Positions 35,949-54,757 of a stretch of 64,000 nucleotides of DNA are shown one piece after another. A program made the translations under genes and the position numbers. The DNA is taken from contig WQVG01000001.1 in NCBI GenBank assembly GCA_009781675.1, positions 1-64,000 of the forward strand, written 5' to 3'. The stretch is from Candidatus Bathycorpusculum acetigenes (GTDB taxonomy: Archaea > Thermoproteota > Bathyarchaeia > Bathyarchaeales > Bathycorpusculaceae). Numbering within the stretch: the first letter of the stretch is position 1; each line of letters starts with the position of its first letter. The notes beneath the pieces were generated by a model. It searched no databases. It was not told the origin of the DNA and worked only from the letters and a program-made list of their open reading frames with translations.

Positions 35949-36203
35949 ATGTAGAAGCCTGATTGAGTGGCATAAAAGCCAGGGCTATAATGGCGTTCTA
36001 AATGATTAAAACTGCCCAAAAAAACAAAATAGGCCTGTGCCGTGTCCGTCTACTCAAACCGGACCAAAAAATATCTCTTAAAAAAACACACCAATAATGC
36101 CCATAGCATAGGCTGATAGTGTCTCTATATGGCTATCTACTCTCTAACAATAAATTTCAAATACCTGCCTTCTAACATAAAACGACAGGTGTATACATTA
36201 ACA

Positions 36204-37277
36204 ATGGGTAATGATTACTTTACCAAAAAACTTGAGCCAATCAAGGTTACCAAACAAAAACCGATTTCTCAACTATTAAAGGAAATGAGCAGAACTGCCT
36301 ATCAAGGCCGCAAACTGGGAGAAGCAGTTGATGTTTGGGAGAACATGCTTAAAGAAAAAGATCTCGTTATCGCCTTAGGTTTTGCCGGTTCAATGTCTAC
36401 GGCTGGACAGTGGACAGTCATTAACTGGCTTATGGAAAATCGTTTCATAGACGTTTTGGTCTCAACGGGAGCAAACGTATCTGAGGACATTGTGGATGCG
36501 ATGGGTTTGGGTTACTGGCAGGGTAGCCACATGGTCAACGACGAAGAACTTCTAGATGCAGACGTTAACCGTTACTATGACGTCTTTGGCAAAGAAACTG
36601 ACTACCGTGAGATGGAGGATCTCGTCACCGACTATGTTATGACCTGCAACCAAGACTATCAGTACACTTCCGCAGAATTTCTCCACGGACTCGGCCAATT
36701 CTTGAATAAGAAAAACATCCCAGCAATCACCGCAGTTGCCGCCGCCAATAACGTTCCAATCTTTAGTCCCGCTATGGTGGATAGCGCATATGGCGAAACT
36801 TTTCTTCTCGCTAAAAACAAAGGGCACAACGTTCACATCGACAGTGTCAAAGAATTCGACCAGTTTGTGCAGATCGGGACAAAAACAAAAGAAGTCGGCG
36901 TTATATATGTCGGCGGGGGCGTCCCAAAAGACCTTACACAACTTATCGCCATATCCGTCTCACCTATGACTGAAGACCAGGGTGTCCAAGGCAGAAAAGG
37001 CGGTCTGCGTAAATCTTTACAAGAATACTACTATCCCCACAAATACGCCATCCAAATCACCACCGATTCGCCACAATGGGGTGGACTCAGCGGGTGCACC
37101 TTGGAGGAGGCAATCAGCTGGGGCAAAATCAACAGCCAAACCGGAACCCGAGCAGTATGCTACTGCGACGCAACCATCGCCCTACCCCTCATCGCCCATG
37201 CCTTAGCTGAACGTGTTCCTGAGAAACGAAACGCTCCAGACATGAGCTGGATCTTCAAAGATATGCCAAAAGCCTAG
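36204..37277 (+). CDS. deoxyhypusine synthase-like protein (divergent paralogue)
   Basis: GGGVPKDLTQ, YAIQITTDSPQWGGLSGCTLEEAISWGKI; start refined to MGNDYFTKKL. Confidence 0.88.
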   Translation: MGNDYFTKKLEPIKVTKQKPISQLLKEMSRTAYQGRKLGEAVDVWENMLKEKDLVIALGFAGSMSTAGQWTVINWLMENRFIDVLVSTGANVSEDIVDAMGLGYWQGSHMVNDEELLDADVNRYYDVFGKETDYREMEDLVTDYVMTCNQDYQYTSAEFLHGLGQFLNKKNIPAITAVAAANNVPIFSPAMVDSAYGETFLLAKNKGHNVHIDSVKEFDQFVQIGTKTKEVGVIYVGGGVPKDLTQLIAISVSPMTEDQGVQGRKGGLRKSLQEYYYPHKYAIQITTDSPQWGGLSGCTLEEAISWGKINSQTGTRAVCYCDATIALPLIAHALAERVPEKRNAPDMSWIFKDMPKA

Positions 37278-38455: not shown

Positions 38456-39424
38456 TTAGGTTTTTGTTTTTTTATTTTCCCTCTCTATAAGCGCGCTCAT
38501 CATTATGGGCATGATTATTGTGGCGTCTCCCTCAATCATTGTGCGTTTGGCCTTCTCACTGATTTTACCCCACGACACCGCTTCTCTGGGACGCGCGCCG
38601 CTGAGACTGCCGTCCCATTCGTTTGCTGTGCTGATGTAGACGACGTAGTCTAAACCATCTTTGAATTGGTTCCACCAGATTGTGTGGTGTTTGCTTATGC
38701 CGCCTCCGATTATGAGGGCCCCTGACTTTTTAGCGTCAAAAACGGTGTTGTTGAGATCATCTTCGTCTTTTAGGAGGTTAACTCGGAAGTCTTTGTGGTC
38801 TTGGCTAAAGAACCATAGTTGGTAACCCACAGAGCCATCCGTTATGCCGGGTACGTAGATGGGGATGTCGTTTTTGGCTGCCCAATAGAGAATCGAGGAT
38901 TCGTTGCAACAGCGTAAGCCGATTTCGCGTGATAACTCGGTTGTGGAGAGTTCTTTTTTCCCTTCCTTGTAGAGGTCAGAGAGCATAGTTTGGATTTTCT
39001 TTTCAATGATAGTGCCATAGCTGTCATTAGGAACAAGAACGTTGCCCAATCGATTGACACCTTCCTCATGTAGTCTGCTGTCATTCATGATAAAACTGCC
39101 TCTGTAGTAGTCCTTCCAACACCGGGCGAGATCGTGATCAAGGGTACCGCAGGTTGTGATAATAACATCAACGAGTTTGCGCTTTACTAATTCTCGAATG
39201 ACGCCCCGAGTACCCGTTGCAATGATGTCGGCGGTAAATGAGAGGAATTTAACACATTTCTTGTCTGTCACCATAGCCTCAATGATGTCCACACCAGTGG
39301 CCAGTTTACCAGCTGTGAAACCCCAAGCATTCTCCATCTGTCCCACTAACTCATTCACCGTCATATTTTCTGTGAATTGGTAATCTTTCACTGCAACTTT
39401 ATGTGCTTCATGCGTTTTTGGCAT
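38456..39424 (-). CDS. dys: deoxyhypusine synthase (canonical-looking)
   Basis: GGGISKHHTIWWNQFKDGLDYVVYISTANEWDGSLSGARPREAVSWGKI, with conserved active-site Lys. Confidence 0.92.
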   Translation of the reverse strand: MPKTHEAHKVAVKDYQFTENMTVNELVGQMENAWGFTAGKLATGVDIIEAMVTDKKCVKFLSFTADIIATGTRGVIRELVKRKLVDVIITTCGTLDHDLARCWKDYYRGSFIMNDSRLHEEGVNRLGNVLVPNDSYGTIIEKKIQTMLSDLYKEGKKELSTTELSREIGLRCCNESSILYWAAKNDIPIYVPGITDGSVGYQLWFFSQDHKDFRVNLLKDEDDLNNTVFDAKKSGALIIGGGISKHHTIWWNQFKDGLDYVVYISTANEWDGSLSGARPREAVSWGKISEKAKRTMIEGDATIIMPIMMSALIERENKKTKT

Positions 39425-39957: not shown

Positions 39958-40701
39958 TTATCTGAAGAGATCTCTATCTTTGGGCCGCGTAAGTATAGCT
40001 GTAGTTGCATCTTCAGTGCGTCGATAGTTGTAGCCTCGTACAATAGCTGCCGGTATGCCCTCGTTGGCTTGCCCCATCACCAGTTCTGTTGCAGAAGCCA
40101 GTTCATCTGCTATGGCGGTTTGCTTAATTTTAAGTACATAGCCGAACAGATCTTTTTCGCCCCGTCTATCTCGGATCGGTTTAAACCCTGCGGTGCCGAT
40201 TGCAACGTTGATTTCACCCATTCGAAACGGTCTGCCATGTGTATCTGCAACAATCACTGCCGTATCTGCGTCGCTGAAGCGTTTGATTTCTGCTCGGATA
40301 TTTGTTGCGGAGATGTTGGGGTTTTTGGGCAGGGGAACCACGTTGTGATCCCCGCTGACATTGGAGTGGTCAATTCCGGCGTTTGCGCAGATTATGCCGT
40401 TGTGAGTTTCGGTTATGATGCTATTTTGTCCTATGCGTACGATGTCTTTAGTTTCTTGTAGTATGACTTCGACAAGTGCGGGGTCTTTGTTGGTTTGGTT
40501 GGCGATTTCTATGGCGCGTTGGGACGGTTTAATTGTTTTGAGGTCCACGATGTTGCCCTCGGATTTGGAAACCACCACATGTGTAACTACCACAACATCG
40601 TCCTGTTGGATTGGGGTACCCTGTTTTTTTGCGGTTTCAGCAATCATTTTGCCCAAGTTGTCGCCTGGTTGTATCAGTGGTAACCCTTCAATGGGTATCA
40701 C
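39958..40701 (-). CDS. cofE: coenzyme F420-0:L-glutamate ligase
   Basis: GLPLIQPGDNLGKMIAE, GIICANAGIDHSNV, DTHGRPFRMGEINVAIG, ADELASATELVMGQANEGIPA. Confidence 0.95.
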   Translation of the reverse strand: MIPIEGLPLIQPGDNLGKMIAETAKKQGTPIQQDDVVVVTHVVVSKSEGNIVDLKTIKPSQRAIEIANQTNKDPALVEVILQETKDIVRIGQNSIITETHNGIICANAGIDHSNVSGDHNVVPLPKNPNISATNIRAEIKRFSDADTAVIVADTHGRPFRMGEINVAIGTAGFKPIRDRRGEKDLFGYVLKIKQTAIADELASATELVMGQANEGIPAAIVRGYNYRRTEDATTAILTRPKDRDLFR

Positions 40702-40858: not shown

Positions 40859-42088
40859 ATGGACGATACAGATGTGCTTGCATTGCAAGCACGAATAGCG
40901 GCAGTACTGCCAGCATTGAACGAATATCAACGCCGTAGATATTTGGCGATTGAAGCAAAAACCATAGGATATGGCGGTATAAGTCTTGTAAGCCGCTTAT
41001 CGGGCGTGTCTCGTCAGACATTGACTACAGGCCTAAAAGAACTCGACAACCCAAACACAAAACCACCAAAACAGGGCCGAAGCCGCAAAAGTGGAGGGGG
41101 ACGAAAACCCATATGGGAAACTCAGCCCCGCATACTATACGCCCTTAACGATTTGATTAACACACATACCAAAGACAATCCAGACTGTATTTTGTCATGG
41201 ACCAACAAAAGCCTGCGAACCATCGAGAGGAGCCTAAAAGAGCAGGGGTTTGAGGTTTGTTATCGGGTTGTGGGCATGATGCTAAAGATGCTAGGCTATG
41301 GTTTAGCGACCGATAAAAAAACCACGACAACCGCTATGTTGCCTGATCGTGACAAACAATTCGAATACATAAATAGTGAAACAGCAAAGGCCATGGTAGA
41401 TAGGAATCCTGTACTCTCAATCGATGTAAAAAAGAAAGGCCGCTTAAGCAATCTCACGGACAGCAGTCAAACCTGCCAAACGATAAACACACCTCTTGAG
41501 GTGGTAGATCATGATTTTCCAATCCCTGAACTCAGCAGGGCTACCTCGTTTGGAATATATGAGATTTTTAAAAAGCAGGGGTTTACCAATGCCAGACTTA
41601 GCTCGGAACTGATCGTATTTACCGTGGAATCCCTGCGGAAATGGTGGTATGCCGAGGGCGTATTTGAGTATCCGGATGCTTTAGAACTTGTCATTGTTGC
41701 TGATTGCGGCAGGAGGAGATATCGAAATCACCTCTGGACGTATGAACTACAAAGGTTTGTAAACGAAATTGGAAAACCCATCAAAATTCTTCATCATCCA
41801 CCGGGAACCAGTAAATGGAACAAAACGGCATGTCGTTTTTTTTCATTCATCCACAGAAATTGGCAGAGCATGCCCATGGTCAATGGCGCTGTCATTATCT
41901 CTTTAATTGGAGACGCAAAAACAGAAAAGCGTTTGGCGATGCGGTGTATTTTTGATGAAGCCACACACAAAACCGGCCGTAAAATATCTGATGCAGAATT
42001 TTCCTCAATCAACATATCCCCCGCAGATTTCCACGGCGAATGGAACTACACCATCGCTCCAACAACGGTTGAGATCTCACTTAATTAG
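40859..42088 (+). mobile_element. ISAzo13-like transposase, apparently intact ORF
   Basis: LVSRLSGVSRQTLTTGLKEL N-term; LSIDVKKKG, VADCGRRRYRNHLWTYELQ, IKILHHPPGTSKWNKTACRFFSFI. Confidence 0.9.
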
Positions 42089-42252: not shown

Positions 42253-42978
42253 TTAGTCACGGAATTTCTGGAGTTTCTGCAACATCAGTTTGTCGCCCTC
42301 AGCATCACCAGCACAGGTTGCGATGAGGCCATCGACAAGTCCAACGCATTTTTCTGCTTTTTCTTCCACGGTTTCCATGGTTGCAGCAGTTGGCCAGCCG
42401 ATGAGTTTGAGGGTTTCTACGTTCTTAGATGTGCCGACCAAGAAATATGCAAACAGTGGTTTGTTGAGTTTCTTGCATTCTGCGGAGACTGCTTTGAGTT
42501 GATCAAATGAATCATCGCATAGTCTCATAAAGTAAACGAAGTCCCATGGCTGACGGACACGTTCCAGTGTATCTTCGATTGACTGCCTTGCGCTCAGGAG
42601 ACATCCGAGTTTTAGGTTTTTGGTTTTTACGTCATTGCGTATAAAGTCCCGGGCAACTTCAGAGGAAGACAATTGTTTTATGGCTTCACCAAAGTGGGGC
42701 TTGTCTCCCATAGTGACTGCTAAACCGTCGAGTCCAACGACATCTGATGCAAGGGCTAAGCCGCCGACTTCAACAGGGCCCTTATAGTGTAGTATGAAGA
42801 TTGGGCAGACATACTTGTCTGGGTATTTGTTTTTAAGTAGGCAACTGACTACGACACCGCTTGGCGCTGGAAAACCGGCGGCGCTGTCAGTTACATTCCA
42901 TCCGTCGACTAGATCTTTGAGTTCTTCTGCAAGCTTGAAGAATTTACGTGTTGGCACAAACTCATTTAAGATTTTCAT
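42253..42978 (-). CDS. MetF-like methylenetetrahydrofolate/H4MPT reductase-type TIM barrel
   Basis: WNVTDSAAGFPAPSGVVVSCLLK..YVCPIFILHYKGPVEVGGLALASDVVGLDGLAVTMGDKP resembles the MTHFR N-terminal half. Confidence 0.75.
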   Translation of the reverse strand: MKILNEFVPTRKFFKLAEELKDLVDGWNVTDSAAGFPAPSGVVVSCLLKNKYPDKYVCPIFILHYKGPVEVGGLALASDVVGLDGLAVTMGDKPHFGEAIKQLSSSEVARDFIRNDVKTKNLKLGCLLSARQSIEDTLERVRQPWDFVYFMRLCDDSFDQLKAVSAECKKLNKPLFAYFLVGTSKNVETLKLIGWPTAATMETVEEKAEKCVGLVDGLIATCAGDAEGDKLMLQKLQKFRD

Positions 42979-43185
42979 AGAGATTCCATCTCGATTTAAG
43001 AGGGGAGGCCTTCTGGGTTAAAAAATCTTTTGCATATCCACCATTCTGGTGTTCTCTGACTTTAATCTCTATAGCTGAGTCACACTTTAGTCTGCCATTT
43101 ATTTACCAAATTGTTATTTCATCTGTTGTTGTTTATCTTGGATAAAGCGTTGCTTGGTGTTATACGGCAGTTTCTATGTTACTCT

Positions 43186-44016
43186 TCATTGTTTTTCTCT
43201 GCGCTCCCTTTTGAGCCTGGATAGTTTAGCGATTTCCGATTTGTCAGCTACATCCATCTCGACATCTAAACCTGACGTCAGTTTTGCACCCCTATTTGAG
43301 CGTACAATCACTGTAGAATACCCAATTTTGTTGCCTGCCGAACCAACTGAAACATCTGATAATCGAGAAACAAAATCCCCACAGAAATTACATGCTTTCT
43401 CAGATGCTCTGTCAAGATCTTTTATTCCACAGCTGAGTTCTTTGCCCTCAATCCACACGATGAATTTACCCTGTTTAACCTGTGTTTTCATAGCTTTATC
43501 TAAATCAGCGCCCAACTGTATTTTTATTTCTTCTTTGAGTCTCTGGGGGTTGAAGGCCCCAAAACAGAATAATCCAATAACGGTGATTTCTATATCTCTG
43601 CTGAGGGTTTGCTGAATTTTTCTGATAGCCGTTATCTCACATGGTGTGCAAACTACCGCTATGCGTTTTTTACCCTCTGATAAGAGTTCTCGTAACTTCT
43701 TGGTTGTGCTGACTCTATGGTAGACGGTGCCTTTAGATGCCAAAATATCCTCTGCAGTTTCTGCTGCTTCCGCCTCTGCGTTGTATCCGTTCTTGCGTCG
43801 GGCAACTATGGCCACATCAAACAAACCCTCATGCATCCCCTTCAGTAGTAATGCAGTGACTACGCCACCGTCTTGCCCTTCAATTTGACTCTTTGCTGAA
43901 AATAGGTTACGATAGGTACCCAGCTCCAAATCTTTGGTTCCATCAAGGAACTGTTGTTCCATTTTTTCATCCTCTGTGTTGCAGACCGGGGCCTTCTCTG
44001 TTTGCTCAGCTGTCAT
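43186..44016 (-). CDS. FrhB/FpoF-like coenzyme F420 hydrogenase/dehydrogenase beta-subunit family protein
   Basis: GQDGGVVTALLLKGMHEGLFDVAIVARR, VCTPCEITAIRKIQ, GLFCFGAF, ACNFCGDFVSRLSDVSVGSAG. Confidence 0.88.
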   Translation of the reverse strand: MTAEQTEKAPVCNTEDEKMEQQFLDGTKDLELGTYRNLFSAKSQIEGQDGGVVTALLLKGMHEGLFDVAIVARRKNGYNAEAEAAETAEDILASKGTVYHRVSTTKKLRELLSEGKKRIAVVCTPCEITAIRKIQQTLSRDIEITVIGLFCFGAFNPQRLKEEIKIQLGADLDKAMKTQVKQGKFIVWIEGKELSCGIKDLDRASEKACNFCGDFVSRLSDVSVGSAGNKIGYSTVIVRSNRGAKLTSGLDVEMDVADKSEIAKLSRLKRERREKQ

Positions 44017-44350: not shown

Positions 44351-45130
44351 ATGAAGATAGCTGTTGCTGGTAAGGGCGGAGTCGGTAAAACCCTCATCGC
44401 AGGCGGCATCGCCAGGGGTTTTGCTGAGCGTGGATTAAAAACAATCGGAATAGACGCTGATTCCTCCCCCAATCTCGGTTTAACTTTAGGGTTATCTGCG
44501 GAAGAAACCCGGAAAATAGTTCCCATATCAGATAATCAGCCACTTGTGGAAGCAAAGACCAGCACAGGTTACAGTGGTGTCTATAATCTTAACTTTACTG
44601 TTGATGATATTGTCAAGCAGTACTCTGTACCCACCCCGTTGGGTGTAAACCTCATCGTCATGGGTACTGTTCATACCATGGGTGCTGGTTGTATGTGTGC
44701 CCCAACTGCTGTTATACGGGCTCTTTTACGGCATCTTGTGGTTGAAGTAAACGAAGCAGTAGTCATGGACCTTGAAGCAGGTGTGGAGCACATCGGCAGA
44801 GGTACAGCACGTCAAGTCGACGATCTTCTCATAATTGCCGATTCCAACATGAAATCGCTTGAAATCGCCAAACATATCCATGATTTAGCAGTTGACGCCG
44901 GCATGAAGAGCCTGCATCTCATCGGTAATCGTGTCATGGATAATACACAACGGGAGGCCATTCAAACCTTCGCCGGCCAAAACGGCATCAACGTGGCCGC
45001 TTATGTTCCTTGGGATCAGAAAATCATAGAATCCGACATGCTGGGCATAACTCCGCTTAAAAACAAAGGCAACGAAGCGGTAAAAGCTATAGATGGCATC
45101 TGCGAGTTTCTACTAAGCAAAAAAGCCTGA
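44351..45130 (+). CDS. cooC: CooC-like nickel-insertion ATPase
   Basis: MKIAVAGKGGVGKT deviant Walker A; IDADSSPNLG; CMC (CxC) motif; start refined from ORF 44150. Confidence 0.9.
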   Translation: MKIAVAGKGGVGKTLIAGGIARGFAERGLKTIGIDADSSPNLGLTLGLSAEETRKIVPISDNQPLVEAKTSTGYSGVYNLNFTVDDIVKQYSVPTPLGVNLIVMGTVHTMGAGCMCAPTAVIRALLRHLVVEVNEAVVMDLEAGVEHIGRGTARQVDDLLIIADSNMKSLEIAKHIHDLAVDAGMKSLHLIGNRVMDNTQREAIQTFAGQNGINVAAYVPWDQKIIESDMLGITPLKNKGNEAVKAIDGICEFLLSKKA

Positions 45131-45228: not shown

Positions 45229-46548
45229 ATGCGTCACATAAAAATGTATAAATGGAAACATTCTTCGACACGTTTTGATCTAGTTAATTTTGGCGCAAAA
45301 GGCGACGGCGTTACAGATGACACTCAAGCTATCAATAGCGCCATTTCTGCTGCGGAAGCTTCTGGAGGCGGTATCGTCGTTTTCCCCAAAGGTATCTTCA
45401 AGTGTATGGCGGTACGCCCAAAAAGCACAGTTACACTGCAGGGACAAGGCTGGGGTGAATCTATACTCAAAGGCTTTGATGATAAAAGCAACAACGCAAT
45501 CATAGACGGCACAGGATACTTCTCCCAAACTTCTCCTCTCACAGAATTCAGTATGTACGATTTAGAATTAGACGGTAAAGACATGAATCGAAATGGCTAT
45601 CACTACAACCGAAAAGGAATCGGTAATCAATGGATAAAAAACGCTATTTTCCACAACATCTTTGTACATGACACTCCTGCAACCGGTATTGGAACCGACT
45701 TTACAATCAACGTCTACTTCACTGATAGCCTAGTCAAAGACTGCGGTACAGAGGGCAAAGTCGGCAATGGTATAGGTAGCAACGGCTTTGGCATCGGAGT
45801 TGGAGATGTGACAGAGGTTGTGGTTTTCTCTGGTTGCCAAGCAATCGGCATAGCCAATAATGGTTTCACACTTGAAGCACAGACGACCCAAGGCATCGGC
45901 TATGCATCGATAACTGACTGCTACACTGAACGGTGCCATGCAGGCTATTCAAACTCTGGTTCACGCGGTGTCACAATCGATGGTTGCATCGACAACTCCA
46001 GCAAACTCGGTGTGTACATAAGCTCTAATGCTTCTAAACCTGGAAACCAAACTCTTATCAGTGATTGCCAATTCATTGAGCAACAAAGCCACGGTGTATA
46101 CTCCGACGACCCAGCCAACAACCACCTACAAATTAGAGGGTGCCTCTTTGAGGGTTGCGGCGGTTCTGCAATAAAAAGTTATGGAAGCTACTGTAGCTTC
46201 ACCAATAATATCTTTAAGGGGTGCAGAGAACCGATCATCCTCTGTCAGCCTGGAACAAACGCAGATGGCAAAGGTTACCTAATCACCGACAACCTCATCC
46301 TAAACGGCGGTGCATCTGGTATACAGATAGACTCAACCAAGCAGGTAGTCATTGGGATGATCGTTAAAGACAACATAATTTTGGACTGTAGAGGACCCGG
46401 AATAAAAGCGATATGTAAAGATGACATGAACAGCGGTAACTATACCGCTTCAGTTATAGACGGTAATGTATGCAACAGCAATTCTTCTCCCCAAATCGAT
46501 GTGCCCAGCAACTGCCATGGTTTAATTGTTAGAAACAACATCGAATAA
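45229..46548 (+). CDS. pectate-lyase-superfamily parallel beta-helix protein
   Basis: FDLVNFGAKGDGVTDDTQAINSAISAAEASGGGIVVFPKGIF; beta-helix repeats (DGCIDNSS, ISDCQFIEQ, IRGCLFEGC). Confidence 0.85.
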   Translation: MRHIKMYKWKHSSTRFDLVNFGAKGDGVTDDTQAINSAISAAEASGGGIVVFPKGIFKCMAVRPKSTVTLQGQGWGESILKGFDDKSNNAIIDGTGYFSQTSPLTEFSMYDLELDGKDMNRNGYHYNRKGIGNQWIKNAIFHNIFVHDTPATGIGTDFTINVYFTDSLVKDCGTEGKVGNGIGSNGFGIGVGDVTEVVVFSGCQAIGIANNGFTLEAQTTQGIGYASITDCYTERCHAGYSNSGSRGVTIDGCIDNSSKLGVYISSNASKPGNQTLISDCQFIEQQSHGVYSDDPANNHLQIRGCLFEGCGGSAIKSYGSYCSFTNNIFKGCREPIILCQPGTNADGKGYLITDNLILNGGASGIQIDSTKQVVIGMIVKDNIILDCRGPGIKAICKDDMNSGNYTASVIDGNVCNSNSSPQIDVPSNCHGLIVRNNIE

Positions 46549-46872: not shown

Positions 46873-47637
46873 ATGAAAACTCTTGTTACTATTGGACGGG
46901 GTGGAACTGGGAAATCCAGTTTCAGTGCATTGATGGCTAAAGTCTTCATTGAAGCCAAACAGTCACCTATACTTCTGGTTGATGCTGATCCGGACCAGAA
47001 TTTGGGTGAAATGTTAGGCGTGGACCTCAAAGAAGCCGGTAAATACACCATAGCTGATTTGATTGTGAGCACTTTTATCGAAGGCGGTGGTACCACTATC
47101 GGTGTTGCTCCAACTCAGCGTATTGAGAGCCGTATCTGGGAAAAGGGGTTATATGAAAGTGAAAACTTTGATTTTATGGCTGTGGGTAATAAATGGGTTG
47201 AAGGTTGCTACTGTATGCCCAACAGTGCCCTCAAGGGTGCCTTAGAATCACTGGCGAAAAACTACAAATATGTAATCGTCGACTCTCCAGCGGGGTTGGA
47301 GAACCTAAATAGACGTATAACCTCTGAGGTTAATGATATCTTTGATATCTTAGATCACTCCAAAAAGTCGCAGGATCATGTCCGTCGAGCTTACAAAATC
47401 GCAAAAGAAGTTGACATGAGATTTGAAAATTTTTATCTAATCGGTGGTTACCGTTTTCCAGATGATTTAGGGAAGCGTGCTGAGGAAGAGCTGAACTTTA
47501 AGTATCTGGGTAAAATTGAGGCTGATGAGCAGTTGGACCAGTTTGTTCTTGATGGAGAATCGCTTCTGGATTTACCAAATACCAACAAGGCTTACTTGTC
47601 AGTCAAGCAAATTCTCAGAAACTTGGATTATTTGTAA
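46873..47637 (+). CDS. second CooC-like ATPase
   Basis: TIGRGGTGKSSFSALMAKVF; LLVDADPDQNLGEMLG; GCYCMPNSALKGAL (CxC). Confidence 0.87.
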   Translation: MKTLVTIGRGGTGKSSFSALMAKVFIEAKQSPILLVDADPDQNLGEMLGVDLKEAGKYTIADLIVSTFIEGGGTTIGVAPTQRIESRIWEKGLYESENFDFMAVGNKWVEGCYCMPNSALKGALESLAKNYKYVIVDSPAGLENLNRRITSEVNDIFDILDHSKKSQDHVRRAYKIAKEVDMRFENFYLIGGYRFPDDLGKRAEEELNFKYLGKIEADEQLDQFVLDGESLLDLPNTNKAYLSVKQILRNLDYL

Positions 47638-47773: not shown

Positions 47774-50119
47774 TTGACTAAAAACGTCCATGTAAAAATA
47801 GACGAAATGAAGACCAACGCCGGTCTTATCAAAAACCTCGAGTTATCCATCGGTAAAGTTGTCAATGACAACTACACTGAGCCCATGGGTCCAACTCCAA
47901 TGCCCTCCGTAACTGCCCTGAGAGATTGGGACATGAAGCTTCTTACTAAGTATAAGGCCTTCTATATGCCCGATTGCGATTCATGTTGCCTTTGTACCTT
48001 TGGTAAATGTGATTTGACTGCTGGCAAACGTGGTGCATGCGGCATAGACATCGAAGCCCAATCATCTCGTATTGTCATGATTGCTTGTGCAATCGGCGCA
48101 GCCTGCCACTCAGCACACTCAAGGCACTTGGTTCATCATTTGATCGAGAAATATGGCCGCAGATTCCCACTAGATATCGGCGGTTTAAACATCAAAGTTG
48201 AAGCACCAATCACGCGTCTAGTAACCGGTATCAAGCCCGAGACACTCGGCGACCTAGATGAAGTTTTAGCATATGTCGAAGAGCAAATCACACAAATTCT
48301 TGCAGTAGCCCATACAGGTCAAGAGGCTAGTGCATTAGACTTTGAGTCTAAAGCAATGCACGTCGGTATGTGTGACCATGTTGGCATGGAAGTCGGTGAT
48401 ATTGCACAGATTTCCGCTTTAGGTTACCCAAAAGCTGACCCCGAAGCTCCACTTGTGAAACTGGGTATAGGTAGCGTTGAACGTTCCAAACCAGTTATCA
48501 TGTGTATCGGACACAACGTCGTTCCATCAGTCGGCATCATCGACTACGCTAAAGAAACCAAAGTTGACGATAAAATCGAAGTAGTCGGTTTATGTTGTAC
48601 AAGTCACGATATGACGCGATACTATAACCGTGCCAGAATCGTCGGTCCAATCAGTTGGGAACTTAGATTTATTCGCGCAGGATTAGCAGACGTCGTTGTG
48701 CTTGATGAACAATGCATCCGAACAGACGTCGCTGAGGAAGCTGCTAAAGTTAACACACCCGTCATCGCAGCTTCTGAGAAAAACTGTGTTGGTTTTAAGA
48801 ACCGCACAAATGATGACACAAATACAATAGTTGAAGATCTTGTCAGCGGTAAAGTTAAAGGCGTACTTATCCTCGACCCCGAAAAAGTCGGTGAAGTAGC
48901 AGTCCGAGTAGTACAGAAAGTAGCTCCAGCACGCAAACGTATGAGCGCCTTGCCGACACCTGAAGAACTTGTCGAAATCGCAAAAACCTGTCGGCAATGC
49001 AAACAATGCCAACGCAACTGCCCTCAGGACTTCGCAATTCCCCCTGCCTTAAAAGCAGCCGCCACAGGCGACATCTCACTGCTAACAGACCTCTATGAAG
49101 TCTGTATCGGATGCGGTAGATGTGAAAGTGCCTGCCCACAGAAAATCAAGATACATAGTCTCATCGTCAAAGCAGGCGAAAAAACGATGTATGCTGAAGA
49201 CAACCTCTGTCGTGTTGGCAGAGGGGCCATCCAAGACACTGAAATCCGTAACGTCGGTAGTCCCATTGTACTTGGCGAAATCCCCGGCATAGTAGCACTC
49301 GTAGGTTGTAGCAACTATCCAAAAGGCGGCAAAGACGTCTACGATATAGCCCGAGAATTCGCAAGCAGACGATACATCGTCGTCCTATCCGGATGCTCAG
49401 CCATGTCCGCAGGCAGCTACCGCAACGAAGACGGCAAAACCATATGGGAAGAATTCCCCGGCGGATTCGAAGCAGGAGGCGTCTGTAACGTCGGCTCATG
49501 TGTATCAAACAGCCACATCGCAGGTGCAGCAATCAAAGTAGCAAACATCTTTGCAAAACGTAGCCTAAGAGGAAACTATGAAGAGATCGCAGACTATATC
49601 CACAACAGACTTGGCGCCGTCGGCTTAGCTTGGGGCGCATACAGCCAAAAAGCCGCAGCCATCGCCGCAGGTTTCTGGCGCTTAGGTGTACCAGTGGTCG
49701 TTGGTCCACACGGTAGCAAATATCGTCGCACCCTTATGGGCAGAAAAGAAGACCCCAAGAACTGGGAAGTCATCGACGCACGCACCGGCGAAACAGTTAA
49801 CGTCGGCCCCACACCCGAACACCTCTTCGCTATTACTGAAACCAAAGAGGAATGCATCGTAGAAATCGCTAAACTCTGCATGAGACCCAACGACACCTGG
49901 AAAGGACGAAGCATCAAACTAAGCCACTACGTTGACCTAAGCAAACGCTACTTAGGTGTCATGCCCGACGATCTACACCTCTTTGTCAGAACAATGGCTG
50001 ATGTCCCATCAACTCTAAAAGATGAATTCACAAAAATCTTGGCAGAGAAAAACTGGAAAGAAACAATCATTCCAGACCCGACCATGTTACCAAGAATGGT
50101 CCGAAAAATGAAGGAGTAA
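47774..50119 (+). CDS. cdhA: CODH/ACS complex subunit alpha (CO dehydrogenase)
   Basis: DSCCLCTFGKCDLTAGKRGACGID; ferredoxin motifs CRQCKQCQRNCPQ and CIGCGRCESACPQ; VALVGCSNYPKGG. Confidence 0.96.
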   Translation: MTKNVHVKIDEMKTNAGLIKNLELSIGKVVNDNYTEPMGPTPMPSVTALRDWDMKLLTKYKAFYMPDCDSCCLCTFGKCDLTAGKRGACGIDIEAQSSRIVMIACAIGAACHSAHSRHLVHHLIEKYGRRFPLDIGGLNIKVEAPITRLVTGIKPETLGDLDEVLAYVEEQITQILAVAHTGQEASALDFESKAMHVGMCDHVGMEVGDIAQISALGYPKADPEAPLVKLGIGSVERSKPVIMCIGHNVVPSVGIIDYAKETKVDDKIEVVGLCCTSHDMTRYYNRARIVGPISWELRFIRAGLADVVVLDEQCIRTDVAEEAAKVNTPVIAASEKNCVGFKNRTNDDTNTIVEDLVSGKVKGVLILDPEKVGEVAVRVVQKVAPARKRMSALPTPEELVEIAKTCRQCKQCQRNCPQDFAIPPALKAAATGDISLLTDLYEVCIGCGRCESACPQKIKIHSLIVKAGEKTMYAEDNLCRVGRGAIQDTEIRNVGSPIVLGEIPGIVALVGCSNYPKGGKDVYDIAREFASRRYIVVLSGCSAMSAGSYRNEDGKTIWEEFPGGFEAGGVCNVGSCVSNSHIAGAAIKVANIFAKRSLRGNYEEIADYIHNRLGAVGLAWGAYSQKAAAIAAGFWRLGVPVVVGPHGSKYRRTLMGRKEDPKNWEVIDARTGETVNVGPTPEHLFAITETKEECIVEIAKLCMRPNDTWKGRSIKLSHYVDLSKRYLGVMPDDLHLFVRTMADVPSTLKDEFTKILAEKNWKETIIPDPTMLPRMVRKMKE

Positions 50120-50134
50120 ACGGAGGAACAACCT

Positions 50135-50680
50135 ATGTCCTGTGAACCATGGCAATGTGCAGAAATCGCATCAACTAAAAAAGCAAACCCAATCCAAAAC
50201 CCCGAGATAGCGGTTGCAATGATGAAGAAGGCTCAACGCCCTCTCCTCATCGTAGGTAGCCAAATCGTTGATAAATATATGGAAGGCAAACAAGCAATCG
50301 AATACATCATAGACCTCGCAAATGCATCAAAAATCCCCGTCGTAGCAACAGCCCATATGGTCGGAGAATTCATCAAACGCGGCTATACCCCCGCATCTCA
50401 CTTAAACGCGATGGAAATCAGTCAACGCGTCTGCGACCCCACGTGGATGGGACTAGACGGTAAAGGTCATCCAGACCTTGTAATATACGTCGGTATGCCC
50501 TACTACATGGAATCTCTGATTTTGTCCGGTCTTAAACACTTTGCACCTGACCTCAAAACCATGACTATTGATAACATGTACCACGTCCATGCAAGTTGGT
50601 CTTTCCCAAATGCAAGCCTAGAAGTCTGGGCAAACAACCTCAAAGTAATGACCTCAAAATTTAATGAAGGAGGAAATTAA
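50135..50680 (+). CDS. cdhB: CODH/ACS complex subunit epsilon
   Basis: Starts after cdhA; AQRPLLIVGSQIV..KIPVVATAHMVGEFIKRGY; DLVIYVGMPYYMESLILSGLKHFA. Confidence 0.92.
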   Translation: MSCEPWQCAEIASTKKANPIQNPEIAVAMMKKAQRPLLIVGSQIVDKYMEGKQAIEYIIDLANASKIPVVATAHMVGEFIKRGYTPASHLNAMEISQRVCDPTWMGLDGKGHPDLVIYVGMPYYMESLILSGLKHFAPDLKTMTIDNMYHVHASWSFPNASLEVWANNLKVMTSKFNEGGN

Positions 50681-50681
50681 A

Positions 50682-52088
50682 ATGTCAATGTTTAAAGATA
50701 TACCTGTAGAAGTTGGCGTAATCTACGAAGGTGAACGTATCCGCAGAAACGACATGCAAGTCGAACTCGGCGGACCCACGGTCAAACAAAAGTTCGAACT
50801 AGCAAAAGTAAAACCCCTTGACCAGATCGAAGATGGCAAAGTCGTCATAATCGGTCCAGATCTGAATAATCTAGCGGAAGGTGGTGCATACCCATTCGGT
50901 ATTCTCATTGAAGCTGCAGGCGAAAAACTCGATGCAGGCCTTGAAGGTGTCATAGAAAGACGCATCCACGGCTACCTCAACTACATCGAAGGCTTCATGC
51001 ACCTAAACCAACGTTACGATATCTGGATACGCCTCAGTAAAAAATCCTTCCAAAAAGGACTAAACAATTTTGAGGCAATCGGCAAAGTCCTCTACAAACT
51101 CTTCAAGAGCGAACTACCCATAATTGAAAAACTCCAAGTTACCTTCATAACCGATCCTGCAAAACTTGACCAGATGACCCCTGAAGCAATCCAAGACTAT
51201 GAAGCACGTGATTCAAAGGCTCGCGGACTCAAAGACTCTGAAGTGGATACCTTCTATGGATGTGCACTCTGCCAATCCTTCGCACCAAGCCACGTCTGTG
51301 TTATCACACCGCAAAGGTACAGCAACTGCGGTGCCATCAGCTGGTTTGACGGCAAAGCCTCCGCAAGCATTGATCCCAAAGGGCCCGTCTTTGCAATCCC
51401 AAGAGGCGAGATGATCAACGAAGAGAAAGGCGAATTCAGTGGCATCAACGAGGCAGCAAAGAAACGAAGCATGGGTGACGTTACCAAAGTCTGGCTATAC
51501 ACAGCATTTGATCACCCGCATACTAGTTGCGGCTGCTTCGAAGCAGTAACCTTCTACATCCCCGAAGTCGACGGAATGGGTGTTGTCCAACGTAACTTTA
51601 AAGGCGCCGCAGTAAACGGTTTACCCTTCAGCACATTAGCTGACTCCACAGCAGGCGGACGCCAAATCGACGGTTTCCATGGGATGTCAATTGAATACAT
51701 GCGAAGCACAAAATTCTTCGCGGCAGACGGCGGATGGAACCGTATAGTTTGGGTGCCCAAAGAAGTCAAAGAAAAAGTCAAAGATTTCATTCCCAAAGAT
51801 ATTGTCGACAAAATTGCAACTGAAGAAGACGCCAAAACCATCGACGAACTAAAAGCATTCCTCAAAGCAAAGAACCACCCAGTTGTCGCGAAATGGACCA
51901 CTGAAGAAACACCCGCAGAAGCAGAGGCAGTTACCATTAACGAAGAAGCCGCAGGAACCATGATGCCAGTTGCAACTGCAGGTTCACTTCCAATCATGGC
52001 CGGGGGATTCAAAATCATACTTAAAGACGCTAAAATATACGCCAACAGAGTCATCATCCAAACAGTAAAAGACAAAGACAAACGGTGA
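50682..52088 (+). CDS. cdhC: CODH/ACS complex subunit beta (acetyl-CoA synthase)
   Basis: PVEVGVIYEGERIRRNDMQVELGG; YGCALCQSFAPSHVCVITPQRYSNCGAISWFDG; HTSCGCFEAVTFYIPEVDG; start refined after ggagg. Confidence 0.97.
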   Translation: MSMFKDIPVEVGVIYEGERIRRNDMQVELGGPTVKQKFELAKVKPLDQIEDGKVVIIGPDLNNLAEGGAYPFGILIEAAGEKLDAGLEGVIERRIHGYLNYIEGFMHLNQRYDIWIRLSKKSFQKGLNNFEAIGKVLYKLFKSELPIIEKLQVTFITDPAKLDQMTPEAIQDYEARDSKARGLKDSEVDTFYGCALCQSFAPSHVCVITPQRYSNCGAISWFDGKASASIDPKGPVFAIPRGEMINEEKGEFSGINEAAKKRSMGDVTKVWLYTAFDHPHTSCGCFEAVTFYIPEVDGMGVVQRNFKGAAVNGLPFSTLADSTAGGRQIDGFHGMSIEYMRSTKFFAADGGWNRIVWVPKEVKEKVKDFIPKDIVDKIATEEDAKTIDELKAFLKAKNHPVVAKWTTEETPAEAEAVTINEEAAGTMMPVATAGSLPIMAGGFKIILKDAKIYANRVIIQTVKDKDKR

Positions 52089-53317
52089 TCACTACGACTC
52101 ACCATGACACAGACAAAAAAAAGGACACTGAAGGCCTGCAACTAAGCAGTGACATCTTAGCGGCACTTGCCAAATTCCAACAGATAGAACTCGAAGACTT
52201 CCACTTGGACGCTAAAGAACTCGAAATCCTCTTCACGCCCGGCATGGCCGCACAAATCCTGCCTAAACTCAAACTTCCAGGCGTAGCAGGTAGCAAACCC
52301 TCTAGTTTGCTATCCACAACCTTCATGCCCCCAATCGAGACTTACCCCAACAAAATCAGTACCGTTAAACTAGGCGCAACTAAAAGCGAAGGCGGCACAC
52401 GCGGCAAAACATTTACAATCGGCGGAGAACTCTCTCCTGCCTTCTATACATTTGAAAATGTAATTCCACACAAACCCATCGTTACCTTAGATGTCTTTGA
52501 TATGGAAGTACCCCTATCCAAAGCAGTCAAAATGCACGTTAAAGACGTAGTCGGCGATCCCGCCGCATGGGCCAAACTTGCAGTCGAAAAATTCGGTGCA
52601 GATATGGTCACAATGCACCTTATCAGCGTCGACCCGCTCCTAAAAGATGCCTCACCCAAAGAAGCATGCAAAACAGTTGAAAAAGTCCTTCAAGCCGTAG
52701 ATGTACCACTCATCATCGGTGGATGCGGTGACCCAGTCAAAGATACTGCCCTCTTCGAAGAAGTATGTACCCAGTTCTCCGGCGAACGCTTCCTAATGAG
52801 TTCTGTCACACTCGACATGGACGTAGAGAAATGCGCTAAATTCATCAAAAAGGCAGGCAACGCAGTTCTTGCATTCACACCCATGGATCTTAACTTTGCA
52901 CGTGAACTCAACAGACGCCTCTACGACCACCTTGCACGCGAAGACATTGTCATGGACCTAACAACCGCAGCGCTCGGCTATGGGTTAGACTACGCATTCA
53001 CCAACATGGAACGTGCTCGTATCGGTGGATTAATGGGAGACCAAGAACTTGCACACCCTATGAGTAGCGGGACAACCAACGCATGGGCAGCTCGTGAAGC
53101 ATGGTTAAAGATGTCAGCTGATTGGGAACCACGTGAACTCAGAGGCCCACTCTGGGAAGTCACCACAGCTCTAACCTTGTTGCTCGCAGGTGTCGACCTG
53201 TTCATGATGATGCACCCAGCAGCCGTAAAAACCCTCAAAGACGTAACTAACTACCTAACAAGCGGCAAAAAAGTCGACCCAGCCAATTTTGCTGATTGGG
53301 TCAAAGTGAGAGCTTAA
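52085..53317 (+). CDS. cdhD: CODH/ACS complex subunit delta
   Basis: PIVTLDVFDMEVPLSKAVKMHVKDVVGDP; LIIGGCGDPVKD; GTGA overlap with cdhC. Confidence 0.95.
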   Translation: MITTTHHDTDKKKDTEGLQLSSDILAALAKFQQIELEDFHLDAKELEILFTPGMAAQILPKLKLPGVAGSKPSSLLSTTFMPPIETYPNKISTVKLGATKSEGGTRGKTFTIGGELSPAFYTFENVIPHKPIVTLDVFDMEVPLSKAVKMHVKDVVGDPAAWAKLAVEKFGADMVTMHLISVDPLLKDASPKEACKTVEKVLQAVDVPLIIGGCGDPVKDTALFEEVCTQFSGERFLMSSVTLDMDVEKCAKFIKKAGNAVLAFTPMDLNFARELNRRLYDHLAREDIVMDLTTAALGYGLDYAFTNMERARIGGLMGDQELAHPMSSGTTNAWAAREAWLKMSADWEPRELRGPLWEVTTALTLLLAGVDLFMMMHPAAVKTLKDVTNYLTSGKKVDPANFADWVKVRA

Positions 53318-53323
53318 GGAGAC

Positions 53324-54757
53324 ATGAAGTGTATGGCAGAAAAGAAAAAAGGTGGATTAAAAGAACTCAGCCCCATCACAATTTACAAGAGTTTACCTAA
53401 AACCAACTGTAAAGAATGCGGCCAAGACAACTGTATGGCATTTGCCACAAAAATTGTCAACCGTGAAGTTGACCTAGAAGCATGCAAACCCCTGCTAAAA
53501 CCCGAAAACGCAAAACATTATGCTCTATTAAAAGAATTACTCAAACCCGCAGTTAAAGAAGTCACAATCGGTATTGGTGATAAAGCCAAAAAAATCGGCG
53601 GCAAACTCGTCATGTACCGCCATGAATTTACCTACAAAAATCCCACAGCCCTCGCAATAGACGTTACCGATGAAATGTCCGAGAGCGAAGTTGTTAGCCG
53701 CGTACAGAAAACAGAGAACTTTAGTTACGAATACATCGGTAACACACTAAAACTCGATTTAATCGCCGTTCGAAGTACCAGCGAAGATTCAGACAAATTC
53801 AAAGCATGCGTTAAAAAAGTCTTTGAAACCACCCAGTTGCCCCTTATCCTTGTTACCCTCAACCCCGCCATAGCCGAGGCGGGTTTAATGGCTGCACCTA
53901 AAGCCAGACCGCTCATCTACGCTGCAACCACCACTAACTGGAAAGAAATGGCCGAACTAGCCATCATGTATGATGCCCCACTCGTTGCATCTGCACCAAA
54001 CGATCTAAGCGCACTTATCTCACTGGCAAAGACTCTGCAGGAATACGGCGTCAAAGACATCGTCCTAGACCCTGGAACCTTCGCAAACGAGGGCTTAGCA
54101 GACACCATCAACAACTTTACCATGTTGCGACGTGCAGCCACTAAAGGCGGCGAAGAACTCGCAGGTTTACCCCTTCTAGGGATCCCCATGGTTACTTGGG
54201 TAAACAAGGGTGAACTTGCAGATGATCTCGTCAAATGGCGCGAATCCTATCTGGCATCGATGATGATTACCCGATTCGCAGACGCACTCATACTCCACGG
54301 TAATGATGGATGGAGTTTGTTGCCAATAGTCGTGCTAAGACAAAACATCTACACCGACCCCAGAAAACCAGTCGCGGTTGAACCCGGCCTCAAAGTCTTC
54401 GGTACTCCAGACGAAAACAGTCCCGTTATGTTCACAAGCAACTTCGCATTAACCTACTACACCGTTGCCTCAGACATCGAGAGTAGCAAAACAAACGCCT
54501 ACCTCATCGTAGTCGACGCAGAAGGTGCCGCTATCGACAGCGGAGTTGCAGGACGCAAACTTACAGCTGAAAAAATCGCAGAAGCAATCAAAACTAGTGG
54601 TATCGAAAACAAAGTCAAACACCGAAAAATCATAAGCCCAGGCAAAGCATCTCGCATCAGCGGCGAAATTGAAGAATTGTCCGGTTGGAAAGTTTTGGTT
54701 GGACCACGCGACAGCAGTGAGATCCCCAAATACATTATCGACAAGTGGCAACCATAA
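53324..54757 (+). CDS. cdhE: CODH/ACS complex subunit gamma (corrinoid Fe-S protein)
   Basis: KSLPKTNCKECGQDNCMAFATKIVNREVDLEACKPL Fe-S motif; corrinoid-binding C-term. Confidence 0.96.
   Translation: MKCMAEKKKGGLKELSPITIYKSLPKTNCKECGQDNCMAFATKIVNREVDLEACKPLLKPENAKHYALLKELLKPAVKEVTIGIGDKAKKIGGKLVMYRHEFTYKNPTALAIDVTDEMSESEVVSRVQKTENFSYEYIGNTLKLDLIAVRSTSEDSDKFKACVKKVFETTQLPLILVTLNPAIAEAGLMAAPKARPLIYAATTTNWKEMAELAIMYDAPLVASAPNDLSALISLAKTLQEYGVKDIVLDPGTFANEGLADTINNFTMLRRAATKGGEELAGLPLLGIPMVTWVNKGELADDLVKWRESYLASMMITRFADALILHGNDGWSLLPIVVLRQNIYTDPRKPVAVEPGLKVFGTPDENSPVMFTSNFALTYYTVASDIESSKTNAYLIVVDAEGAAIDSGVAGRKLTAEKIAEAIKTSGIENKVKHRKIISPGKASRISGEIEELSGWKVLVGPRDSSEIPKYIIDKWQP

Follow-up and report, generated by a model that had tools for sequence, protein, structure and literature searches.

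A short MetF-like protein family as a candidate methylene-tetrahydropterin reductase in place of Mer and MetVF

The window analyzed here is a stretch of 64,000 nucleotides of Candidatus Bathycorpusculum acetigenes. It belongs to a genome of 2,139,595 bases in 140 contigs, Emb289P1_bin127 (WQVG), from the TB2 lineage of termite-gut Bathyarchaeia (Loh et al., 2021, PMC7886697), since renamed Bathycorpusculum (PMC10684969). On the minus strand, an ORF for an FrhB-like F420/FAD/4Fe-4S protein of 276 aa (43186..44016) is followed, after a gap of 207 bp (42979..43185), by an ORF for a short MetF-like protein of 241 aa (42253..42978), a candidate methylene-tetrahydropterin reductase. An earlier reading of this DNA from its letters alone (hereafter, the sequence-only reading) had located both ORFs correctly, coordinates and strand included, and had described them as a co-directional pair upstream of the cooC/cdh genes. 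The pair is co-directional, but its members are 207 bp apart and the cooC/cdh genes lie divergently on the opposite strand.

These plus-strand genes comprise a CooC-like nickel-insertion ATPase divergent from frhB/metF (44351..45130, assigned by reading, with the start taken at the internal MKIAVAGKGG), a second CooC-like ATPase (46873..47637, also by reading), and cdhA-E, encoding CO dehydrogenase/acetyl-CoA synthase (CODH/ACS; 47774..54757). CdhC is confirmed by a PF03598 match at 50700-51164, and the other subunits are assigned by reading and from PMC7886697. The two cooC genes are separated by an ORF resembling right-handed beta-helix/pectate lyase proteins (45229-46548); in relatives they are mostly adjacent, and locus L072 also has an ORF, of 440 aa, between them. 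The preceding step of the pathway is represented by an MtdB-type methylene-H4MPT dehydrogenase (PF09176; 295..1224, plus strand). On the other side of metF lies a gene for a CofE-like F420 gamma-glutamyl ligase (39958..40701, minus strand, by reading). This is the usual downstream neighbor of metF in the genus, at 94–169 bp in most close relatives; in the window, a transposase-like ORF of 409 aa (40859..42088, plus strand, by reading) is interposed.

The 241-aa ORF is a real gene, since 49 genomes of the 101 relatives, among them that of the window, encode it at 57–96% identity; over the whole family, identity ranges from 45 to 96%. Family members were found in Bathyarchaeia, Hadesarchaea, Archaeoglobales, Mnemosynella, Desulfurococcaceae/Ignisphaera, Bipolaricaulota, and one Actinomycetota MAG, the bacterial sequences forming a separate branch. 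The window protein has no match by sequence in Pfam, NCBIfam, or PDB, and searches of the same collections with the family profile gave no informative match either. The two family models proposed for comparison by the sequence-only reading both failed to match: PF02219 is unmatched by the window protein and by all 40 diverse family members, and neither the Mer model (TIGR03555) nor any luciferase-like model of NCBIfam or Pfam matches the 241-aa protein. A first hhalign comparison of the family with archaeal MetF covered 37 columns only; after addition of the E. coli and other MetF sequences, the alignment extended to 79 columns (residues 13–92) with E 3.4e-4. The MetF-like assignment made by the sequence-only reading thus receives weak support from profile comparison and finds its support in the predicted fold.

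The AlphaFold model of the 241-aa protein, built with 40 diverse homologs, is a barrel with a mean pLDDT of 94.8. The best Foldseek match in PDB is the Chaetomium MTHFR (8uy1, E 2.9e-7, TMq 0.74), and MTHFRs head the list, with Haemophilus MetF (5ume, TMq 0.71), the Thermus (8eac, 0.68) and the E. coli (1b5t, 0.61) structures among the further matches, as well as the flavin-free mycobacterial Mfr (7wmz, E 4.7e-7, TMq 0.65; 8bgr, TMq 0.57). The list also contains tryptophan synthase alpha, hence the fold by itself is no proof of a reductase. Fifty-four alignment columns are invariant in the 40 diverse members in addition to Glu6, situated in the N-terminal EFVPTR motif, and Asp92. Glu6 was equated with Glu28 at the end of strand 1 of E. 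coli MetF by motif and strand order rather than by superposition, and Asp92 was paired with E. coli Asp120 by profile alignment. In MTHFR, Mfr, and Mer, the counterpart of Glu6 is a catalytic residue, and that of Asp92 touches the pterin, as shown by Gehl et al. (2024, PMC11094777). A third position, C, is occupied in MTHFR, Mfr, and Mer by Gln or another carboxamide (PMC11094777); in the corresponding region of the 40 members (E. coli Gln183, strands 5–6), inspection of the sequences revealed no invariant Gln, while Arg152 is invariant. By the same inspection, strand 5 is followed by a shorter loop than in MetF, where this loop holds the A-x-P-x3-P segment and Lys172. As this loop is the FAD site of MTHFR, its shortening argues against a standard FAD site.

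We conclude that the short protein represents a hitherto unnamed family with the MTHFR fold; no description of it was found in the openly accessible papers searched. Family models do not detect a sequence resemblance to any known reductase. This counterpoint, together with the presence of several other TIM barrels (tryptophan synthase alpha) among the fold matches and the apparently missing key Gln, could be taken to mean that the family consists of C1 enzymes with a TIM barrel but another function, regulatory or resembling methyltransferases, which travel with CODH/ACS genes. The phyletic and operon evidence given below, along with the MTHFRs at the top of the fold list, makes this quite improbable.

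In the set of 101 relatives, the short gene occurs in 49 genomes and Mer above the curated cut-off in 23, and they never occur together (Fisher p 1.3e-8); in 257 Bathyarchaeia genomes, the respective numbers are 76, 52, and zero (p 1.1e-9; two 32-residue fragments with stop codons were left out of the 76). Both p-values ignore relatedness, the genomes are non-independent samples, and the MAGs are incomplete. Ordinary MetF above the PF02219 cut-off was found in 23 of the 101 relatives, and none of these 23 has the short gene. More telling than the p-values are switches between the short gene and Mer within single genera, observed in four of them (29 and 2 genomes, respectively, in g1, 6 and 1 in g18, 1 and 1 in g20, 2 and 5 in g40). 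Of the 74 relatives with CdhC, the short gene accounts for 38, Mer for 21, and PF02219 MetF alone for 8; the other 7 have none of the three. The correlation with CdhC was discounted as evidence, being weak by itself, as almost all complete relatives have CdhC. The exclusion has the following exceptions: a Hadesarchaea MAG (G120) combines a short gene near cdh (L120) with a Mer of 355 bits, slightly above the cut-off, two Bathyarchaeia carry the short gene along with a C-terminal Mer fragment (G163) or a 241-bit, sub-cut-off Mer-like protein (G214), and PF02219 MetF is present in two remote carriers of the short gene.

The sequence-only reading had recognized no mer in the window; canonical mer turned out to be absent from the rest of the genome as well. 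The only luciferase-like protein of this genome (C8:24968-25720) scores 233.6 bits with TIGR03560 (Rv1855c), passing its cut-off, and 68.8–71.6 bits against the Mer model, whose cut-off is 348.7; it was rejected as Mer, being an Rv1855c-type paralog. The single PF02219 match in the genome is likewise to be discarded as a spurious stretch within an ORF assigned by reading to a P-type ATPase. Loh et al. (PMC7886697), applying an HMM threshold of 1E-5, reported Mer in TB2 and not in TB1 or AD8-1, saw no methylene-THF reductase in any of the Bathy-6 genomes, and concluded that the ability to reduce CO2 to the methyl level had been lost repeatedly. Of TB2, G000 and G014 contain the sub-cut-off luciferase-like match, which is lacking in TB1 (G001, G009, G019, G020, G026, and G027) and in AD8-1 (G057). 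Since the distribution of the paralog reproduces the published pattern, we infer that the TB2 "Mer" is this Rv1855c-type protein, the probable origin of the Mer distribution described for termite-gut Bathyarchaeia. The alternative, that the paralog does act as Mer and the MetF-like protein has some other role, would agree with the TB2 genomes having been credited with Mer and with the residual score against the Mer model. It is nevertheless very improbable, given that score's distance from the cut-off, the TIGR03560 match above its own cut-off, and the lack of the paralog in TB1 and AD8-1, which retain CODH/ACS and the short MetF; the short gene is common to TB1, TB2, and AD8-1. Elsewhere, the step has been named "Mer/Fgd" in a later study of Bathy-6 (PMC11697101), and mer was reported missing in two families, for which "an alternative and unknown complex" was proposed (PMC8407382).

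The strongest operon evidence comes from bacteria. The Wood-Ljungdahl operon of Bipolaricaulota has the order AcsE-RACo-X-FTHFS, where X is MetV with a PF02219 MetF at loci L181, L184, L185, and L186, and the short gene alone at L179/L147 (one genome) and L148. In L180, MetV and MetF also lie between RACo and FTHFS, with hydrogenase-like genes in the same gap. PF02219 is unmatched in the genomes of L179/L147 and L148. MetV beside the canonical MetF was identified by PF12225 in L181 and L184 and by sequence in L180, L185, and L186. In L179, L148, the window, and the other contexts examined, the short gene had no MetV neighbor. Thus, a single short gene takes the place of both MetV and MetF in an operon that already holds a methyltransferase, AcsE, which, like the strict exclusion from Mer and MetF, is difficult to reconcile with a methyltransferase-like or regulatory function. 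FTHFS points to H4F as the C1 carrier in Bipolaricaulota; both pterins are therefore probably used within the family. In Archaea, the genomic neighborhood is also that of the pathway: in Bathyarchaeia the short gene usually adjoins cooC/cdh and cofE or cofD, the F420-dependent Mtd adjoins it in L109, L121, and L123 (by PF01993 in L121), and in Ignisphaera/Desulfurococcaceae MtdB (PF09176 in L140) lies 16–48 bp downstream.

With MTHFR (PF02219, E. coli MetF), the short family shares the beta-alpha barrel, the N-terminal EFxPxR-type motif with the catalytic Glu, the GD motif after strand 4 with the pterin-binding Asp, and the pathway position in bacterial Wood-Ljungdahl operons. It is, however, about 50 residues shorter, is missed by PF02219, lacks an obvious counterpart of Gln183 and a recognizable A-x-P-x3-P/Lys172 segment, and was not found beside MetV. 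The MetVF systems of acetogens and the ANME-type MetF with MetV would carry out the same C1 step and share the operon slot in Bipolaricaulota, but contain the Fe-S subunit MetV (PF12225). The parallel with ANME-1 drawn by the sequence-only reading is therefore inexact, since MetV is reported to be always adjacent to the ANME MetF (PMC9012536). Mer (TIGR03555) shares the proposed reaction and the place in the archaeal pathway, and the sampled Bathyarchaeia contain no co-occurrence above the cut-off; it is a bacterial luciferase-like barrel (PF00296) with no sequence similarity to the short family, whose electron donor, moreover, may not be F420. Mfr, the flavin-independent methylene-H4F reductase known only from mycobacteria according to PMC11094777 and itself missed by PF02219 (PMC7857596), likewise has an MTHFR-like fold, a single subunit, and a catalytic Glu near the N terminus. 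Mfr is larger, about 290 aa, and PDB searches, which included Mfr chains, gave no sequence match to the short family.

Taken together, the exclusion from Mer and PF02219 MetF, the MetVF operon slot, and the MTHFR fold with its Glu and Asp strongly support the earlier suggestion that a MetF-like protein replaces Mer, and the 241-aa protein can, with high probability, be predicted to work alone as a methylene-tetrahydropterin reductase in place of Mer or MetVF. The reaction and its direction, the cofactor, and the part played by FrhB are what we infer, as follows. In Archaea, the short protein would convert methylene-H4MPT to methyl-H4MPT, or the reverse; in the bacterial carriers, the reaction would most likely be that of methylene-H4F to methyl-H4F. 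Glu6 may act as the acid that opens the methylene-pterin to a 5-iminium ion, similarly to Glu28, Glu9, and Glu6 of MTHFR, Mfr, and Mer, respectively, with Asp92 holding the pterin; a hydride would then be delivered to the C1 unit, and the resulting methyl group would enter CODH/ACS. The FrhB protein of the window could serve as an F420-linked module supplying or taking up F420H2, rather than as a required subunit.

The FrhB-like assignment of 43186-44016 stands, as both FrhB_FdhB domains are matched above the curated cut-offs of 22 (N) and 23.3 (C) bits: PF04422 with 48.8 bits (E 8e-13) and PF04432 with 119.2 bits (E 1.9e-34). The closest solved relatives are the F420H2-oxidizing halves of Fsr, FpoF-type proteins, and FrhB, and on inspection its four cluster cysteines align with those of Fsr; it differs from this family in having neither the N-terminal ferredoxin domain nor hydrogenase subunits. 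The sequence-only reading had combined this protein with the MetF-like one in a two-protein enzyme: FrhB would accept electrons of F420H2 or ferredoxin and hand them on to the MetF-like subunit, the route within FrhB presumably being its flavin and 4Fe-4S cluster. The genes are adjacent and co-directional in the window and at about 15 other loci, and electron-transfer genes do cluster with the short gene: an FpoF/FrhB-type protein adjoins it, in other orientations, in L114 and L143, and NfnAB-like genes lie upstream in L121 and L123. As a general mechanism, however, the two-protein enzyme is unlikely. The pair is not conserved: FrhB directly precedes the short MetF at about 16 of the 81 loci, which all belong to Bathyarchaeia, and is not beside the short gene at the great majority of 80 loci, including most TB1 Bathycorpusculum loci. 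The gaps are 96–207 bp, and those of 96–186 bp in relatives may accommodate a metF promoter of its own. FrhB is also less conserved, at 48–70% identity where the short MetF has 77–96%, and the bacterial slot is filled by a single gene without FrhB.

Moreover, FrhB keeps other company. In L089:4201-10726 and L097:4063-10729, it stands between HoxE,F,U,Y,H-like genes, whose assignments are backed by Pfam domains for L089, and the short MetF; this order hints at an F420-coupled Hox hydrogenase. In L099:1459-8164, within the cdhA–cdhC interval, Pfam domains reveal a HoxU-like 2Fe-2S/4Fe-4S domain fused to FrhB, a NuoE-like protein, and a NuoF-CdhB fusion. The same set, CdhB being the acetyl-CoA synthase epsilon subunit, is found in the cdh operon of L094:788-7493, suggesting an NAD(H)/F420 module wired to CODH/ACS. 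The location of FrhB behind Hox genes or its fusion to a HoxU-like domain makes F420 electron exchange with Hox/diaphorase or CODH partners probable. FrhB thus more likely serves as an F420 electron module; supply of F420H2 to the short MetF is possible, whereas an obligate FrhB–MetF complex is unlikely.

As for the electron donor, we favor a soluble dihydro-cofactor that differs between hosts, being either F420H2 or NAD(P)H, and the enzyme may have no flavin bound. A stricter version would make the short protein a flavin-free, F420H2-specific reductase, equivalent to Mer in function but built on a barrel derived from MTHFR. The frequent neighborhood of cofE, cofD, and the F420-dependent mtd speaks for this version, as do the shorter strand-5 loop and the presence of flavin-free Mfr among the fold matches, and it has an appreciable, albeit clearly less than even, chance of being correct. 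On the other side, CofD was not found in eight crenarchaeal carriers, which, though for any single MAG such an absence is no proof, indicates that F420 is not the donor throughout the family; the methylene-H4MPT dehydrogenase of the window genome is of the MtdB type and not of the F420 type (see also PMC7886697). The CofD matches in Bipolaricaulota were not accepted as evidence of F420, as PF01933 also matches E. coli and other controls. Returning to the host-varying donor, we tentatively propose, at only a little under even chances, a new reductase class: minimal, single-subunit, flavin-free, and MetV-independent enzymes that would act on H4MPT in Archaea and on H4F in Bacteria, with hydride donors varying between hosts. 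They would have repeatedly replaced Mer and MetVF and would make the methyl branch complete again in lineages at present regarded as without it.

The debate on whether Bathyarchaeia have full Wood-Ljungdahl capacity has hinged on the apparent absence of Mer. Mer or ordinary MetF explains 29 of the 74 CdhC-positive relatives, and the short family would explain 38 more. If the prediction is correct, many archaea and a few bacteria lacking the two known enzymes may manage the methyl-forming step after all, and annotation pipelines systematically overlook a core step of CO2 fixation. The division of termite-gut Bathyarchaeia into acetogenic and non-acetogenic ones would then have no basis in Mer, although their hydrogenases still differ. 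The bacterial homologs would offer an easily testable enzyme.

Several neighborhoods of the short gene and its surroundings contain further genes. In L121:6477-11655 and L123, the NfnAB-like pair lies directly upstream of the short MetF and the F420-dependent Mtd downstream, possibly forming an NADPH/ferredoxin-linked C1 redox operon. In L128:7719-10726, a methionine synthase homolog (PF01717) and an adjacent gene, similar by reading, are divergent from the short MetF, which suggests a link to methionine synthesis. Finally, two deoxyhypusine-synthase-like genes of the window (36129-37277 and 38456-39424) are kept near cofE and metF across the short-MetF family.
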